Below are positions 39,163-50,107 of a stretch of 64,000 nt of DNA, in pieces. Position numbers and translations under genes: made by a program. The DNA comes from Leuctra nigra (taxonomy: Eukaryota > Arthropoda > Insecta > Plecoptera > Leuctridae), in assembly GCA_934045905.1 (NCBI GenBank), contig OW203768.1:25883060-25947059 (forward strand), given 5' to 3'. The notes under the pieces were generated by a model that made no database searches, was not told where the DNA came from, and worked only from the letters and a program-made list of their open reading frames with translations. The first letter of the stretch is position 1, and each line of letters begins with the position of its first letter.

Positions 39163-40626
39163 CTCATGACCATGTACCCCTCAACAGAGTATTTAATGAT
39201 CGTTTAGACCCACTTAACGTATCCGATGCCCATCTAATGAGGTATTACAGATTTCCTCGAGCAGTTATACTTGATCTAATAAACTTATTGCATGAGCAAT
39301 TGGCAAGACCAACATTCCGATGTCATGCAATCCCTGTACACACACAAGTTTTGACTGCACTTCGCTTTTATGCCTCCGGAACGTTTCAAAATGTTGTAGC
39401 TGACACAACAGGGATAAGTCAGCCAAGTTGTTCCCGCATTATTAAAAGCGTCAGTAAAGCCTTGACGAATCTTGCTGCCCGATACATCACATATCCAATA
39501 AATGATGTGAACTTCATAGCGCAAGTTAAATCAGGTGGGAATCAATGTAGGAGGCTTATTTTGATAGTTAAACTCGGAAGTTATTCAATGGAGATAATAT
39601 TTCATAAATATCGTCATAACTTTGAACCATTCAAGTTGAAAAATAATTATCACACATTTTTTAGTTGACCCTGTCAATATAAACACAAACTTAAATGTCA
39701 CAACTCAACTCAAAGCTGGGCACAAGGATTGTATAAGTTTGTGTATAGGTATATTAGGTACTATAGTTGTGTATATTAACAAAGTCAATTAAAATATTAT
39801 ATTTTATGCATTCTTATTTTTAAAAATTTTCATTATTTAAATGGTTCAAAAGTTTTGACATTATTTAGAATATTTTATCTCCAGTGTTTACCTTCAAGAG
39901 TGCATTCTAGTCTTAAGTTCATGTATGAATTTAGATGTAGGTAGGTTATTAATATCATTAATACTATAGATTTAAAAATAATATGAATTCATTATCGTGC
40001 TCCGGATACAACCAGAAAATTTCTTATAGTTATTGATATGAATACATTACCTACATAACACACCAGTAGTTGTAAAAAAATCACAAATTACTAATATTTG
40101 ATTTTTATGTAGAAGATCTGATGTTGTCCATGATCTACCAGCTCATTGTCTTTGTCTATTGGCTGCAGACTTTTTCAGAATGGCTCAATTTCCAAATATA
40201 ATTGGTTTGATTGATGGTACGTTAATAGACATCAAAGGCCCATCGATAGACGAGCCTCTATTTGTGGATAGGCACCTGAACCACAGTATTAACTGCCATG
40301 TTTTATTTTATTTTATTTATTTTATTTATTTATTTCAACAAAGGACATGTTCAGTATTACAGTGATGCAATTAAAAAACAATGTATATGTCATGTCAATA
40401 AAACGAAACATTCAAGTCGTAAGTATTATCATACCCGTCAATTTACACATGTATATACATTAAAATACAAAATACATTTATGAAATAATTATAATAATTA
40501 AAGAAGTGTAGTCATAGAGTATTAAAACAAAACTAGAATAATCAAGTACCACATTCTCCCTGCTGGTCATCACAAACATGACTTTTACAAGTAGTTAAAA
40601 ACTCGCCAACTGAATAGAAGCCTCCA

Positions 40627-43600
40627 TTAATAAGGAACAATTTTAATTTTAGTTTGAACAATAACATACTTTCTATTTTTTTTGATACAGCTTGGCAAGT
40701 GATTATATAGAATTACTCCTTTATATGATAGGTCCTGTTCATAGAGCGCTGTTTTATGTTGAAAGTTTCGTAGTTTGTTTTGGTTTCTTACATTATAGTG
40801 ATGTACATCCCCCGATGTTTCAAACAAATGGACGTGTTTCCTGATTTGAATTATTATTTCATATATATATAAGCTTGACAATGTTAGAATTTTAAACTCC
40901 TTGAATAGTTCTCGGCATGAAAAGCGCCTCCACTTTTTATGAATAATGCGTAGTGCCGATTTTTGCACTGTAAACAATTTGCAAGCATAATGTACTCCCC
41001 CCCAGAATATTATACCATACCTCAATAAAGGTTCAAACAATCCCAAATAAATGGTTTTCATCGTGGAAATGTCAAAATTACTTCTTAGGATTCTCAATGC
41101 ATAACAGGCTCTCGTTAGTTTGAGCTTCTGGTTGTTGATATGTTCATGCCAGTTTAGGTTTTTGTCAATTTGAACTCCAAGAAATCGAGTTGAATTTGTT
41201 ACATTAATATTTACTGAGCCATTTGCAATTTTTGGTGGAGCATTATCTATGGTCGTGTTGTGCGGATTGCGAAACGCGAGTAGCTGAGTTTTTGAATTAT
41301 TGAGGGCTAGCTTATTTACTTCAAACCACTTAATTACATTTCTTAACGTTTTATTTAAATTTTGTTCGGCTTCCAGAATATTATTTCCCACGGCTACTAT
41401 AGTGGTGTCATCCGCGAACTTAGTAATTTTGACGTTCGGGAGCTTGCTCTCCAAATCGTTGACATAAAGATTGAAAATTATTGGTCCCAGGACCGAACCT
41501 TGTGGAATACCTGAAGTTATTGTACCCTTATTAGATTGTACTTTTCGCCTTGTGCCATCATCTGAAATGTGCATAATTTCAACTACCTGTTGCCTATTCT
41601 CTAAGTAAGACATAATTAGGTTGTGAGCAGTATCTTTTATTCCCATTCTATCTAATTTTTTTGCAAGCAGATGGTGATCAAGGCAATCAAAAGCTTTCTG
41701 AAGATCGCAATACAACCCAAGAGTGCACTTACTTTTGTCCATGGACTGTAATATATATGAAATGCTATCATCAATCGCATCCGTTGTAGACATGTGGGGC
41801 CTAAATCCGAATTGGTTATTGGCTAGAATTTTATTTGCATCTATAAAAGTAAGAAGTCTGTTTTTAATCACATTTTCATATATTTTGGAGAATATAGTTA
41901 GCAAAGAAATAGGTCGATGATTGACCATGTCAGCCCTACAGCCCTTGTTTTTAAATATTGGCTTTACTATAGCTGTCTTAAGATAATTTGGGAAAATACC
42001 ATCTTTGAGACATTGATTTATCAATGCTGACAATACGTGAGCTGTAACATGAATAGTCTGCTTAATTACTCGTGCTGTAATACCATCTATACCTACTGCA
42101 TTTGTATTCTTTAACTTCATTGCAATATCTATCACTTCTTTACTTGTTGTAGGTAAAAGTACTATGCAATCTGGTATGAGTTCTATATTCTCAGTAAGCT
42201 CTGATTGCTCCAGGTCAGTTACATTGTTATTTGAGTTTACTTCATTCGCGACATTTAGATAGAAATTATTGAAATAATTAGCAATCGTTAATGGGTTTTG
42301 TATCAATTTATTGTTGACAATAAGCTCAAGATTTTCTTCTTTTATTTCATGGCTTTTAGCTCCAGTTTCCTGTTTAACAATGTCCCAAATCATCTTTGGT
42401 TTATTAGCTGCATGTTCTACAATATTTTTGTTATGTAATATCTTAGCATCTTTGATGTTTTTACGGTGTAGACGTTTCATTGTTTTATACCTTTCCCTTT
42501 TAAAATCACATTTATAATCCCTTGCTTCTTCAAACATAATCTTTAGGAGGCAACTTTCTACTCGAATATTTTCTGTTACCCAACCATTATTTTGTAGTCG
42601 TTTAGTTGTTTGCTGCTTCTTTTTTACTAAAGGGAATGCTATATTGTAGTGTTCAAGGTAGATATTCATGAATAGTTCAAAGTTTTGATTTACACTGTTA
42701 AATTCATTGATATTTTCCCACAACTCAATATTTAGCCTATTTCTAAATAAATCAATTTTGCTTTTGTTTATTGGTCTGCACCATGCAATTGGTGTGGCAA
42801 CTATTTCTTGTTTACTGGATTTGAGAAATGTAAATGTTTCAATCCTCGCAACCTGTTGAGTATGGTCTGAAATTCCATTTTCAGTCACTTGAGTTGTTAT
42901 GACGCGCTTGTCTATATTAGTCAGAATGTTATCAATGACCGAGGAAGTAGTATTCGTGACCCGGGTTGGGGAGGTTATTAGTGCTTGAATGTTATATGAA
43001 TTGATTACAGTGCTAAGGTCATTCAGCTCTTTTGACTCTTTCACAAAGTTTATATTAAAATCCCCGGTGATAATGATATGTTTTCTCTCGTTGCTAATAA
43101 CATCCAATATTTTCGAGAGACTATCAAGAAATACGTCAAATATACCTGTCGGAGCTCTGTACACCGTTATAATGATAATATGTTCGCAGCATACATTGTT
43201 TATTTCATTTATTTCTACAATTGAACACTCGAAATGTTTATCAGAATTCAAATTTTGAAATTCCGCTCTTTTCAGTGCTTTATGGTTGTTTCGCACATAT
43301 ATGATCGTTCCCCCTCCTATATGACAAGTTCTGGTATATGAGTCACTCATTCTATAGTTATGCAATTGCATCATATTTGCCTCTGCCTCACTTAGCCAAT
43401 GCTCTGTGAAAGTAACGATGTCATACTCGCTAGTTTGATCGTCATCATCTTCAAATAATATGGCAAGCTGGTTCATTTTGGCTCTTAGGCTTCGTACATT
43501 CTGGTGACTTATCTTTAAATACATGTTGTTTGAGCCCTCAGCTCTGTTTACTAACTTATCATGTTTGTGCAGCCTCTCGGTGAATGTATTTTTGCTTGAG

Positions 43601-43665
43601 TTACCAGGCAAAGCAATGATCTCATTTCCAGCCCCCCCAACACATATTAGTTTTCCGAATTGCAC
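40627..43665 (-). CDS. LINE ORF2, AP endonuclease plus reverse transcriptase
   Basis: About 1,012 codons, open throughout. Endonuclease: SHQNVRSLRAKMNQL, TEHWLS, YRAPTG, GDFNINF and SDHTQQV. RT: NHRPISLLTIFSKI, FGFRPHMSTTDAI, GLYCDLQKAFDCLDH, IPQGSVLGPIIF and the catalytic KFADDTT box. The frame opens at a GTG overlapping the last codons of ORF1 by 19 nt. The first in-frame ATG is at 43524, still upstream of the endonuclease, so ORF2 may start there or be reached by stop-start coupling. Predicted to nick DNA and copy the element RNA. Confidence 0.88.
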   Translation of the reverse strand: MQFGKLICVGGAGNEIIALPGNSSKNTFTERLHKHDKLVNRAEGSNNMYLKISHQNVRSLRAKMNQLAILFEDDDDQTSEYDIVTFTEHWLSEAEANMMQLHNYRMSDSYTRTCHIGGGTIIYVRNNHKALKRAEFQNLNSDKHFECSIVEINEINNVCCEHIIIITVYRAPTGIFDVFLDSLSKILDVISNERKHIIITGDFNINFVKESKELNDLSTVINSYNIQALITSPTRVTNTTSSVIDNILTNIDKRVITTQVTENGISDHTQQVARIETFTFLKSSKQEIVATPIAWCRPINKSKIDLFRNRLNIELWENINEFNSVNQNFELFMNIYLEHYNIAFPLVKKKQQTTKRLQNNGWVTENIRVESCLLKIMFEEARDYKCDFKRERYKTMKRLHRKNIKDAKILHNKNIVEHAANKPKMIWDIVKQETGAKSHEIKEENLELIVNNKLIQNPLTIANYFNNFYLNVANEVNSNNNVTDLEQSELTENIELIPDCIVLLPTTSKEVIDIAMKLKNTNAVGIDGITARVIKQTIHVTAHVLSALINQCLKDGIFPNYLKTAIVKPIFKNKGCRADMVNHRPISLLTIFSKIYENVIKNRLLTFIDANKILANNQFGFRPHMSTTDAIDDSISYILQSMDKSKCTLGLYCDLQKAFDCLDHHLLAKKLDRMGIKDTAHNLIMSYLENRQQVVEIMHISDDGTRRKVQSNKGTITSGIPQGSVLGPIIFNLYVNDLESKLPNVKITKFADDTTIVAVGNNILEAEQNLNKTLRNVIKWFEVNKLALNNSKTQLLAFRNPHNTTIDNAPPKIANGSVNINVTNSTRFLGVQIDKNLNWHEHINNQKLKLTRACYALRILRSNFDISTMKTIYLGLFEPLLRYGIIFWGGVHYACKLFTVQKSALRIIHKKWRRFSCRELFKEFKILTLSSLYIYEIIIQIRKHVHLFETSGDVHHYNVRNQNKLRNFQHKTALYEQDLSYKGVILYNHLPSCIKKNRKYVIVQTKIKIVPY

Positions 43666-45239
43666 TGATTTTGAATGTGCTCAACCATCGAGTGCCCTAA
43701 CTTCATCCCACCTTTGTAATTCAAATGCACTCCGTCTTTAGCTGAGTCATGCTTTGACAATTTTGTGTTTGGGTCGAAATATAACAAATGCCTTTCGTTA
43801 CATAACCATTCTATCGACTCATTTAGCTTATTTACTACCCCATCGTATACGTCACCTCTGTACACAATTCCATTTAACGACCATTTAGCATTTGGATATT
43901 TCTTTTGCCCCTTATTTATCAAATCATTTAATTCTACCATCAGATGTGAGTTGCTTTTAAATTTAATGTTATTTGTACCAACATGAATGATGATAAGGTC
44001 CGGTTCACTTTCGTCGTCTCTGCGTTGTATCACTGAAGAAAGTTCATTCACTCGAATCCCCGGGTAAACGCCGACTTCGCATCCGTGTCTCTTGCAAAGG
44101 TCGCCTGCAACTCTGATCATCGAATCGCCCAATATTAACACTTTCTTTGTCACCTTTGGGTAGTGCTCGCTTTGCTCTTCATTTTCTCGCAATATCCTCT
44201 TATATTTTTCTTCGATATTCTGGGTTCCTCTCCTCTTCTTTTCCATTTCAGCGTGTTGTTGTCTCGTCAGAGTAAATATTTCTATTTCTATATCAACATC
44301 TGCAAAAACTTGTTCGATAATTGGTTTGACATTGACCCAATGTAAACGATCTTTTCCACACCCCAATTTAGGCATCGCGAGCCTTTTAATGTTGTGTTCT
44401 TCACACAGGTCACGGAGCTCAGTGAGGGCGCTAGTCAGAGTATTCAAAGTAGGCTTCTGGAAATGCTCCTCCTTAGTGATTAAGTAGAAAATTTTCCTTC
44501 CCTCCTCTTCAATCCATGCAACCTGCCCCACTTCCTTCTCTTGCTGTTTCAATTCTTCCACGCGACCAAATCTAGTTTTAAAGTCAACTGCTATGCCCTG
44601 GTCCATAGTGTAAGATTTCGAGACGCAATGGGCCAGGGAAGCTGTATTCGTAGGGGAAAACAGATCATTTCTTACCTCAGTAATCCTGGTATTTAATTTG
44701 CTGTCGATGTCAATGTCTGGCTTTGCTTTGCTAGGCACCGGTTTTGTTTTGTTTACGTTCTTCTGCCCAGGTGATTGAAATGATTTTGCCATGGACGGCC
44801 CTGTCGACTGTAGCACTGTCTCACGGTTGAAAATTAAGTTACTTACGTTTGGCCATGTAACCTCAGAATTATCAGCTTCACGCTTCCCCAGTTTTTCTAG
44901 ATCTCTTATCTTCACTTCCATATTCCTATTCTTTTCTTCCGTAAGATGTAATACCTTCTTCATTTCAGCAACAAGTTCCCGCGTGGTTTTCACTTCACGT
45001 TCGCTAGCATTAGCAAGGCGTTTCCACACGTCACATTGTTTACAATCGGTCACCGCAGCACTGTTTTCGCTTTTGCGAAGAGCCTCAGTAATAATTGAAG
45101 CTTTTAAACGTTCCACTAGCACCGCCTTCACTCCACGAACCGGTTCACCACGTTTTTCAAGTTCGATCTTTAGGTCATTTATGCTTAAAACACTTATTTC
45201 TCGGGACCCATCGCCAGCGCACTGGTCACCGTCCGCCAT
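43647..45239 (-). CDS. LINE ORF1, SAP + TARG1-like macrodomain + SGNH esterase
   Basis: 530 residues from the ATG at 45239; the frame is open further upstream, but those codons are Harbinger sequence. Residues 16-50 form a SAP-type DNA-binding helix pair (LSINDLKIELEKRG...LVERLK). Residues about 70-120 form a coiled coil. Residues 201-323 form a macrodomain very like OARD1/TARG1, opening SLAHCVSKSY and containing FYLITKEEHFQKPT and MPKLGCGKDRLHW. Lys256 and Asp297 sit where TARG1 has its catalytic Lys and Asp. Residues 365-525 form an SGNH hydrolase: LGDSMIR (Ser373), HVGTNN and DGVHLN (Asp502, His505). The esterase is known in some LINE ORF1s; the macrodomain is the surprise. Predicted activities: ADP-ribosyl-Asp/Glu hydrolysis and esterase. 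Confidence 0.88.
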   Translation of the reverse strand: MADGDQCAGDGSREISVLSINDLKIELEKRGEPVRGVKAVLVERLKASIITEALRKSENSAAVTDCKQCDVWKRLANASEREVKTTRELVAEMKKVLHLTEEKNRNMEVKIRDLEKLGKREADNSEVTWPNVSNLIFNRETVLQSTGPSMAKSFQSPGQKNVNKTKPVPSKAKPDIDIDSKLNTRITEVRNDLFSPTNTASLAHCVSKSYTMDQGIAVDFKTRFGRVEELKQQEKEVGQVAWIEEEGRKIFYLITKEEHFQKPTLNTLTSALTELRDLCEEHNIKRLAMPKLGCGKDRLHWVNVKPIIEQVFADVDIEIEIFTLTRQQHAEMEKKRRGTQNIEEKYKRILRENEEQSEHYPKVTKKVLILGDSMIRVAGDLCKRHGCEVGVYPGIRVNELSSVIQRRDDESEPDLIIIHVGTNNIKFKSNSHLMVELNDLINKGQKKYPNAKWSLNGIVYRGDVYDGVVNKLNESIEWLCNERHLLYFDPNTKLSKHDSAKDGVHLNYKGGMKLGHSMVEHIQNQCNSEN

Positions 45240-45255
45240 CTTGGATGCCTCGATG

Positions 45256-45945
45256 CCACGCATGACCAGCATGTCTGGAATGAATGCGCTCTGAAGCAAC
45301 GGCTTGATGCTGGAGTTGTGCCATCAGGCTGGCTGCTCGGTAAGATTTAATAATCATTTCAAATTAGGGCTGGATCGAATTTGGATTTTAAATCTAAATT
45401 TAATGATTCAAATTCAAATTGTTCAAATTTAAAAAAGAAAACACATTTGTTGGTACGTCCGATCAATTTGAAATTTGACAGGTCAAGACCAACATTGACT
45501 CATATTTTACAAAGTATCAGCAAAATCCTCCAATTTGTCAAAATTAAGAAAATATTCCGATTGGTTGAAAATGTTGTGTGTGGCCCCGATCAAGAGATCT
45601 TTAGCTTGTCAGCTCGCTGGCCAGGGTCCACGCATGACCAGCATGTCTGGAATGAATGCGCTCTGAAGCAACGGCTTGATGCTGGAGTTGTGCCATCAGG
45701 CTGGCTGCTCGGTAAGATTTAATAATCATTTCAAATTAGGGCTGGATCGAATTTGGATTTTAAATCTAAATTTAATGATTCAAATTCAAATTGTTCAAAT
45801 TTAAAAAAGAAAACACATTTGTTGGTACGTCCGATCAATTTGAAATTTGTCAGGTCAAGACCAACATTGACTCATATTTTACAAAGTATCAGCAAAATCC
45901 TCCAATTTGTCAAAATTAAGAAAATATTCCGATTGGTTGAAAATT
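45256..45945. repeat. 372-bp direct duplication beside the LINE
   Basis: CCACGCATGACC...TTGGTTGAAAAT occurs at 45256-45572 and again at 45628-45944, offset 372 bp. The segment spans the end of a transposase exon and part of its intron. The 55 bp between the copies (GTTGTGTGTGG...CAGGGT) continue the sequence broken at 40300. So a 372-bp tract is duplicated, with the first 55 bp of the left copy missing where the LINE is. Confidence 0.85.
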
Positions 45946-48985: not shown

Positions 48986-50107
48986 TACCACAAACTCTAT
49001 AAATATGGCATCAGGGGTATCTCACTAGAACTAATTCGAAACTATCTCTCAAATAGGCAGCAGTATGTCCAAATTAATGAAGTTCTCAGCTCACCTAGGA
49101 TAATAGAGTACGGTGTTCCGCAAGGGACAGTGCTAGGTCCTCTGCTCTTCCTCTTGTATATAAATGATTTATGTAACTTAGATATAGAAGGAAAAATCAC
49201 CACTTTTGCAGATGACACAGTCCTCTTTTTTTCGTCACCATCTTGGAATGAGACCTATAAGAAAGCTGAAATCGGATCTAAAAGAGTAAAACAATGGCTT
49301 GATATTAACACACTCACCTTGAACTTGGATAAATCTCTGTACATTACCTTCTCGCCTCGACAAAACACTCAACCCACAGATATTGCCTTAAAGATTCATA
49401 ACAACGGTTGCAGCATGTCCGATCTCAACTGCCAGTGTCATATCCTAAAGAAAGAACGTGAGGTGAAGTACCTTGGACTGAAGATCGACCAGCATCTAAA
49501 ATGGGATAGTCATATTAACTTGCTTGTGAAGAAGCTACGGTATTCACTGCATAACTTTTATATATTAAGAGATATCCTTCCTTTCCGTACACTAAGAAAT
49601 GTCTACCATGCGATATCGCAGTCAGTGATACAATACGGAATTGCTGGATGGGGAGGTGCTTATAACACCCACCTACGCCCACTTGAAATACTTCAAAATA
49701 TCACCCTAAAAGTTATACGAAATAAGACGTATCGATACCCTACTGCACTTATATACGAAGAGAGTAACACTTTGCCAATCTGTAAACTATATTTCAAGTC
49801 AATCGTTACTCATGTACACAAACAAATAAATAAAAATAAATTAATTACACATTCTGACAAGATCAACGCTCTCCTTGGTCAACGCATTACGAGAGGTAAT
49901 ACAAACAAGCTTATCAGAGTTCCAAAGATGAAGAAAACGCTAAGTCAGAGGCACGCTTGTTATCTTGGTCCAAAACTTTTCAACCTCCTTCCATTAGAAA
50001 TAAGAGAACTAAAACAAAAGAAATCGTTTAAAACATGCTTAAAATTTTGGCTAAGGAAATGTTCGAAGGTTATAATAAAAGATACAATGAACCACAAACT
50101 ATCGTGA
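48986..50107 (+). pseudogene. 5'-truncated CR1/L2-like LINE, RT C-terminal half
   Basis: Begins in the middle of the RT (KYGIRGISLELIRNYLSNRQ) and is open to 50107. It includes YGVPQGTVLGPLLFLLYIND, the catalytic TFADDTVLFF box, CHILKKEREVKYLGLKIDQH and the C-terminal domain. It matches the lineage of the 2.7-7.3 kb LINE but is clearly diverged from it. No ORF1 or endonuclease is present, the usual result of incomplete reverse transcription. The Harbinger right end lies 60 bp upstream. Confidence 0.88.

Follow-up and report, generated by a model that had tools for sequence, protein, structure and literature searches.

The first open reading frame (ORF1) of CR1/L2 long interspersed nuclear elements (LINEs) carries an SGNH esterase, as described in passages of PMC3905857 and PMC4120745. 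In this type IV ORF1 (for example ZfL2-1, PDB 4c1b), a helix or coiled coil is joined to the esterase with its S, N, D and H residues, and an endonuclease-reverse transcriptase (RT) ORF2 follows downstream. Here we describe a LINE, family A, in a 64,000-nucleotide stretch of Leuctra nigra (assembly GCA_934045905.1, contig OW203768.1, positions 25,883,060 to 25,947,059 of the forward strand; the whole stretch is called the window below). Its ORF1 shares these parts, the helix by prediction, but differs in having a macrodomain between the helix and the esterase and a SAP motif at the N-terminus. It therefore exceeds the type IV domain set (esterase, sometimes zinc finger or leucine zipper) and is a variant rather than a plain member. 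In the 2014 classification of ORF1 types (PMC4120745), the main text contains neither the word "macro" nor "SAP".

The macrodomain has the same fold as human TARG1/OARD1 (C6orf130), the ALC1-like hydrolases and bacterial DarG, with about 45% identity and the catalytic Lys and Asp. Unlike TARG1/OARD1, this predicted hydrolase is fused in a retroelement ORF1 with SAP, a long helix and SGNH. Fish endogenous retroviruses are also retroelements bearing macro-domain ORFs (Basta et al. 2009, cited in PMC4977317), but they are retroviruses and not LINE ORF1s, and the passage of PMC4977317 does not give the class or place of the macrodomain. Moreover, a passage of PMC5408684 describes enzyme modules common to retroelement classes of bdelloid rotifers (GDSL and DEDDy ORFs in LTR (long terminal repeat) and Penelope-like elements), which are other enzymes in a separate ORF3, whereas here the module is fused into ORF1 or placed after a protease. 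In the open-access literature searched, we found neither a LINE ORF1 nor a gypsy Pol described with a macrodomain. An original prediction had likewise noted no well-described LINE ORF1 with a TARG1-like domain. Macro ORFs in retroelements as such are known from the fish retroviruses. What is new is the combination, the fact that one genome has it in two classes of retroelement, and the conserved catalytic dyad; the parts are of known kinds.

The SAP-macrodomain-SGNH ORF1 of family A

The original prediction, made by reading the DNA letters, had placed a SAP motif, a coiled coil, a TARG1-like macrodomain and an SGNH esterase in one frame, with an intact ORF2 next to it. The parts of the element are as follows.

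40301..45245, minus strand: LINE element of family A, about 4.9 kb, within a HARBI1-like transposon gene
43647..45239, minus strand: ORF1, 530 residues plus stop, with SAP, long helix, TARG1-like macrodomain and SGNH esterase
45099..45194, minus strand: SAP motif, residues 16-47 (Pfam PF02037, 1.7e-9)
44874..45041, minus strand: residues 67-122, a long helix by AlphaFold2 secondary structure and probably a coiled coil
44253..44693, minus strand: TARG1-like macrodomain, residues 183-329 (PDB phmmer 4.6e-37; limits from the profile)
44472..44474, minus strand: K256, counterpart of catalytic Lys84 of human TARG1 by alignment
44349..44351, minus strand: D297, counterpart of catalytic Asp125 of human TARG1 by alignment
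43656..44150, minus strand: SGNH/GDSL esterase domain, residues 364-528, with S373, N423, D502 and H505 retained
40627..43665, minus strand: ORF2, endonuclease and RT, open, in frame -1 relative to ORF1

The domain assignments, the kept catalytic pair and the intact ORF2 (Exo_endo_phos_2 1.3e-8, RVT_1 8.1e-36) are all supported by our analysis. TARG1 is the nearest solved structure to the macrodomain. A predicted structure without a macro fold was to count against the original prediction; the model does have the macro fold, and TARG1 is its top match in both Foldseek and VIA-align. A chance match of a short motif is ruled out by Pfam, PDB phmmer and the fold matches. The roles of Lys84 and Asp125 in catalysis by human TARG1 are described in a passage of PMC9411070. 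The SAP-macro-SGNH ORF1 is confirmed as real.

The genome contains four full-length ORF1 copies (window counted) of 99-100% identity, and ORF1 is linked to ORF2 in 4/4 of them. ORF2 has four unbroken matches at 97-100% (window counted), one of which has a stop codon, and in addition a C9 copy in two pieces. The frame is the genuine ORF1 of a young, multi-copy LINE. The element lacks the structure of an LTR retrovirus and is a LINE by its ORF2; its architecture appears CR1/L2-like. When the window copy is compared with the three other full-length copies, synonymous changes in ORF1 are in excess, at 8 synonymous against 3, 4 or 5 non-synonymous codon differences (binomial P 0.0004, 0.001 and 0.002 at a synonymous site fraction of 0.215); the three comparisons are not independent, in that the window branch is common to all. 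The six ORF2 pairs gave synonymous/non-synonymous counts of 4/22, 20/24, 19/26, 19/14, 18/16 and 1/4, and those including the window are inflated because its tail is read in another frame (8 versus 7 A at codon 996).

Macrodomains and ORF exchange among the retroelements

With ORF1 as the query, the genome gave at least 87 matches (81 scored out of 1127 candidates), and with the macrodomain at least 150 (150 scored out of 382 candidates), the latter all with E <= 2.2e-25. Eight places of the latter (L049-L056), picked by frame length and not at random, were read with about 1.5 kb of flanks and comprise four LINE-type ORF1s (L052-L055) and four gag-protease frames; 40 further places were read only as macrodomain pieces. 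A one-off chimera or assembly artefact is ruled out by the multiple linked copies, the other families and the 150 scored macro matches.

Seventeen distinct macro-bearing LINE-type ORF1s were read (window, L006, L007, L010-L012, L041, L043-L048, L052-L055). The original prediction also hinged on linkage to ORF2 in other copies, and here an endonuclease lies downstream over the Pfam cut-off in 11 of the 17 (window, L006, L011, L012, L041, L045-L048, L052, L055). It is below cut-off in L043 and L044, a BLAST match only in L010 and seen only by eye in L054; none was seen in the broken relic L007 or in L053, where the stretch ends first. Among the accessory domains, SAP exceeds the Pfam cut-off in the window, L006 and L055, and PHD in L011, L052 and L053; PHD is below cut-off in L041, L042 (which belongs to the L012 family), L043 and L045. 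Thirteen LINE-type ORF1s have macro and SGNH side by side (L007 left out as broken), and SGNH was not recognised in the macro-bearing L006, L054 and L055.

The macrodomain is located after the protease in the gag-protease frames L049, L050, L051 and L056, which are open over 2265, 1751, 1638 and 1585 residues, respectively. In L051, of Ty3/gypsy type by motifs as judged by eye, CCHC, protease and RT (5.9e-35) are all over cut-off, and the order is protease, macro and RT. L049 has CCHC and protease over cut-off, and its stretch, like that of L056, ends ahead of any RT. The gag-protease features of L050 and L056 are below cut-off or by eye only, and the start of RT in L050 was recognised by eye. 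It is evident that the macrodomain recurs, as part of LINE ORF1s as well as of gag-protease(-RT) frames. No host TARG1 gene separate from transposons was identified in the genome. TARG1-class modules form a pool found in many retroelements of this genome, and the window element drew from it.

We aligned 78 macrodomains, consisting of 61 loci of this genome (12 loci were dropped beforehand as near copies, fragments or overlapping fetches, and the 61 still include close copies), 16 proteins from other records (some not transposon proteins) and human TARG1. Both catalytic residues are present in 68, including 52 of the 61 own-genome loci and 15 of the 16 other proteins, P0020 (K/H) being the sole exception among the latter. 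K84 (0.96) ranks fifth and D125 (0.90) twelfth in conservation among 145 columns. The dyad is retained in 12 of the 13 macro-bearing LINE-type ORF1s first aligned, a set that includes the broken relic L007. In the 13 with both enzymes, from which L007 is left out, the macro dyad is likewise kept in 12 (exception L044) and the esterase S/N/D/H set is intact in 7; the esterase Asp is replaced in L010, L011, L041 and L043, and L052 and L053 lost more.

The nearest relative of the window ORF2 is family B, with 16 matches over ORF2 residues 27-1009 at 81-82% amino acid identity. The family B ORF1 frame (L030, L036, L037, L038, L040) has 342 residues with SAP and SGNH and without a macrodomain; its Pfam run covered L030, where SGNH is below cut-off. 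L029 and L039 have a shorter SAP/SGNH frame, and L035 has no such frame in the flank examined. Between the two families, ORF2 has a synonymous divergence (dS) of 0.50 and a ratio of non-synonymous to synonymous divergence (dN/dS) of 0.20, whereas ORF1 is saturated at synonymous sites (proportion of differences 0.80 and 0.85 in the SGNH and SAP parts). Their DNA similarity of 84-86% starts about 28 codons into ORF2, and blastn found none in ORF1. Thus, the ORF1 and ORF2 of the window have different histories. The window macrodomain clusters with L006, L055, L057 and L058 (support 99/94), and in a second tree with L006 and L055 (95/90); the ORF2 of L006 belongs to another deep lineage than that of the window. 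In a second case, the ORF1s of L019 and L017 are 99.9% identical in DNA over 1263 nucleotides and no match extends into ORF2; this is a recent swap of ORF1, in one copy, onto ORF2s of different lineages. Reticulate evolution of ORF1 is known in this LINE superfamily, according to a passage of PMC4120745.

The ORF2 tree of the internal set has three well supported groups, all with macro-bearing members (in one, the window alone), on long branches whose joins may be false. In the approximately unbiased (AU) test on 31 chosen macrodomain sequences, the p values were 0.059 for the LINE sequences as one clade, 0.17 for LINE, LTR and P0008 together and 0.13 for the LTR sequences. Because the macrodomain trees are weakly resolved, we claim neither a number of captures nor a single origin of the LINE macrodomains.

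Related proteins in other records are known here from their protein sequences alone. The first ORF1 search gave nine proteins, namely four of SAP/SGNH type, a further one with both of these below cut-off (P0003), one with PHD (SGNH below cut-off) and three with macro, among them P0008 (by profile only) and P0009 (below the Pfam cut-off). The TARG1-like domains of P0008 and P0009 lie in frames without further Pfam class, P0008 having the look of a CCHC-type ORF1 by eye. A profile search with 12 ORF1s gave 13 proteins. P0010-P0012 have macro and SGNH (SGNH below cut-off), and in P0013, where both fall below cut-off, SGNH precedes macro. In P0016, which is named Athalia rosae, the macro is accompanied by H2C2 and rve integrase domains over cut-off, and P0020 has a weak integrase C-terminal match, a macro by profile only and CCCH. 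P0015 has RWD and macro, and P0017 is a DNA ligase III with a PARP-type finger and a TARG1-like domain between the ligase core and BRCT. The protein search with the macrodomain alone gave one protein. A phage search matched 18 of 50,697 records, over the macrodomain part, at <= 39% identity.

Element ends, ORF junction and neighbouring sequence

The limits of the element were set by comparing copies, L001-L005 for the 5' end and L031-L034 for the 3' end.

45234..45244, minus strand: element 5' start, CCAAGATGGCG spanning the ORF1 start codon, with the same context in several families
40301..40338, minus strand: 3' tail of AAATAA/AAAT-type repeats, similar in L032-L034
43647..43656, minus strand: GGAAAACTAA, which overlaps the ORF1 stop; putative site of -1 frameshifting (G_GAA_AAC)

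The common sequence of the copies begins at about TCCAAGATGGCGG, and in two copies at CTACTCC, so that the element starts merely about 6-10 nucleotides ahead of the ATG. An AAATAA-type tail is present on 4/4 examined 3' ends. The start motif CAAGATGGCGG is found at the beginning of ORF1 in the window (45234-45244), L002-L006, L012, L014, L017, L018 and L041-L043, and stands nearly at the element 5' end in three LINE families; a start context of this type is absent from L022, L027, L036, L044 and L048. We take it to resemble the TISU/YY1 motif, which serves at once as promoter and as translation start.

ORF2 lies in the -1 frame at 17 of 17 ORF1/ORF2 junctions with a settable frame (window, L010, L011, L012, L017, L022, L026-L028, L036, L041 and L043-L048, with L026 and L028 of one family). 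A slippery-type heptamer occurs at or just before the ORF1 stop (n=18, raw counts), namely A_AAA_AAC in 8, G_GAA_AAC in 6 and G_GGA_AAC in 3; the end of ORF1 in L006 has no such heptamer. A_AAA_AAC and G_GGA_AAC rank among the most shift-prone heptamers on mammalian ribosomes, as stated in a passage of PMC5009743. These features suggest that ORF1 and ORF2 may be fused by frameshift in these LINEs.

The HARBI1-like gene of the window is interrupted by the LINE, around which no clear target-site duplication was seen on inspection by eye. An exact direct repeat of 300 nucleotides (45256-45555 and 45628-45927, spacing 372), HARBI1-like, adjoins the 5' end of the LINE. A second RT-like open frame of 325 residues, LINE-like by eye, lies at 49130-50107 on the plus strand.

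Possible role of the macrodomain

TARG1 strips ADP-ribose from acidic residues and from the ends of nucleic acids, and it also cleaves O-acyl-ADP-ribose, according to a passage of PMC7050489. In Drosophila without PARP-1, the elements that rise are mainly of the gypsy superfamily and also LINE-like, and ten more elements, nine of the gypsy superfamily, rose without significance (a passage of PMC7712786). PARP domains are present at 12 places in the L. nigra genome, with three clustered pieces on C3, a cluster of four on C5 and five on C2 (one broken). One domain from C2 and another from C5 were tested, and both are closest to PARP12, then to PARP14/15 and ZAP. The C5 cluster of four catalytic domains spans G000:C5:21453650-21474288.

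We favour, at a little better than even chances, an active hydrolase serving counter-defence, which would relieve PARP-dependent restriction of the element. The macrodomain would be carried as an active enzyme in the ribonucleoprotein of the LINE or the particle of the LTR element. There, it would remove ester-linked ADP-ribose, on Asp/Glu or on phosphate ends of nucleic acids, with which host PARPs had marked the proteins or RNA/cDNA of the element or the chromatin close to it, and this removal would relieve the restriction. The LINE integration nick would be one possible site of action, not necessarily the main one. LINE ORF1 is an RNA-coat protein and the LTR macrodomain follows the protease in the frame of the particle enzymes, so that the place common to both is probably the element's own particle, which favours removal of marks from element components over a role at the nick only. 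Many jumping genes of this genome carry a close relative of the TARG1 eraser, and we suggest that they employ it against a host mark of defence or repair.

Several points weigh against this counter-defence. D125 is replaced by N (K/N) in one LTR-like lineage (L050, L064, L067, L070, L080, L087; five of the six in open frames >1,100 residues, L050 alone read with flanks), and the dyad is altered in L044 (R/E), L057 (N/D) and L071 (I/D); some copies with an altered dyad may be only binders or dead. Pfam Macro is below cut-off in L043, L050, L051, L053, L054 and L056 and unlisted for L049, L012 and L046, and where it fails, the macrodomain call rests on the macrodomain genome search and the macrodomain alignments. 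The other three family A ORF1 copies differ by 0 synonymous and 1, 2 and 3 non-synonymous changes and therefore show no sign of constraint after they diverged; within the macro region, the window has 3 synonymous and 2-3 non-synonymous changes, too few to judge. Between families, dS is mostly saturated, and since this applies to the macrodomain in most pairs, we base no claim on its dN/dS. PARP2 is reportedly, by a paper title only, a helper of L1 integration. Finally, of the eight elements significantly changed without PARP-1, five went up and three down, and the authors consider that the effect may be indirect (passages of PMC7712786).

A wider form of the counter-defence is possible, though we hold it with somewhat less than even confidence: LINEs of three ORF2 lineages and gag-protease-RT LTR elements would share and trade TARG1-class hydrolases against PARP1- and PARP12/14-like host enzymes, some of these in tandem, as the transposon equivalent, in a eukaryote, of the macrodomains that RNA viruses carry.

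The original prediction proposed, plausibly, that host ADP-ribosylation may be removed at the integration nicks or from the element's own proteins. In the nick model, PARP-type enzymes would modify themselves, ORF1p/ORF2p or DNA ends there, the macrodomain would strip the modification, and target-primed reverse transcription would finish. The adjoining SAP and PHD modules suggest contact with DNA or chromatin, the ligase P0017 with its PARP-type zinc finger and BRCT ties a TARG1-like domain to nick repair, and TARG1 interacts with PARP1 and has ADP-ribose on the ends of nucleic acids among its substrates (a passage of PMC7050489). The same module in gag-protease-RT type frames argues that the nick part of the idea may be too narrow. 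Such elements integrate by chemistry other than the LINE nick, and the reported help of PARP2 to L1 integration also disagrees with it; we regard this explanation as unlikely.

Less likely still, the domain may chiefly bind ADP-ribose and anchor the element at sites of damage or on chromatin that is ADP-ribosylated, for integration guidance or nuclear retention, hydrolysis being incidental. The catalytic Lys and Asp of 52/61 own-genome loci would hardly be needed for binding alone, yet the K/N loci and the R/E locus L044 keep open frames, and the ALC1-like class contains both readers and erasers (a passage of PMC7050489). It is improbable that the target would be sirtuin-linked marks, either mono-ADP-ribosylation or O-acetyl-ADP-ribose, with SGNH perhaps as a second deacylase. 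SIRT6 mono-ADP-ribosylates KAP1 and thereby silences L1 in mammals (a passage of PMC4695847), O-acetyl-ADP-ribose is cleaved by TARG1 (a passage of PMC7050489), and macro and SGNH adjoin in 13 LINE-type ORF1s; however, the esterase residues are altered in 6 of these 13 while the macro dyad stays, and the macrodomain stands without a recognised SGNH in L006, L054, L055 and the LTR-type frames. A functionless passenger, whether from a single chance fusion of a host TARG1 fragment or from a chimeric assembly, is hardly credible, for although family A is young and small, the 150 matches lie in many distinct open frames with a conserved dyad and proteins from other records have like architectures.

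The occurrence in LINE and LTR elements and the ORF1 swaps show retroelements trading enzymatic modules. If the macrodomain is active, LINE ORF1 proteins carry an identified eraser, and the role of an ORF1 accessory domain would be directly testable via one catalytic Lys and known PARP inhibitors. ADP-ribosylation would then be a front between host and transposon, beyond that between host and virus.

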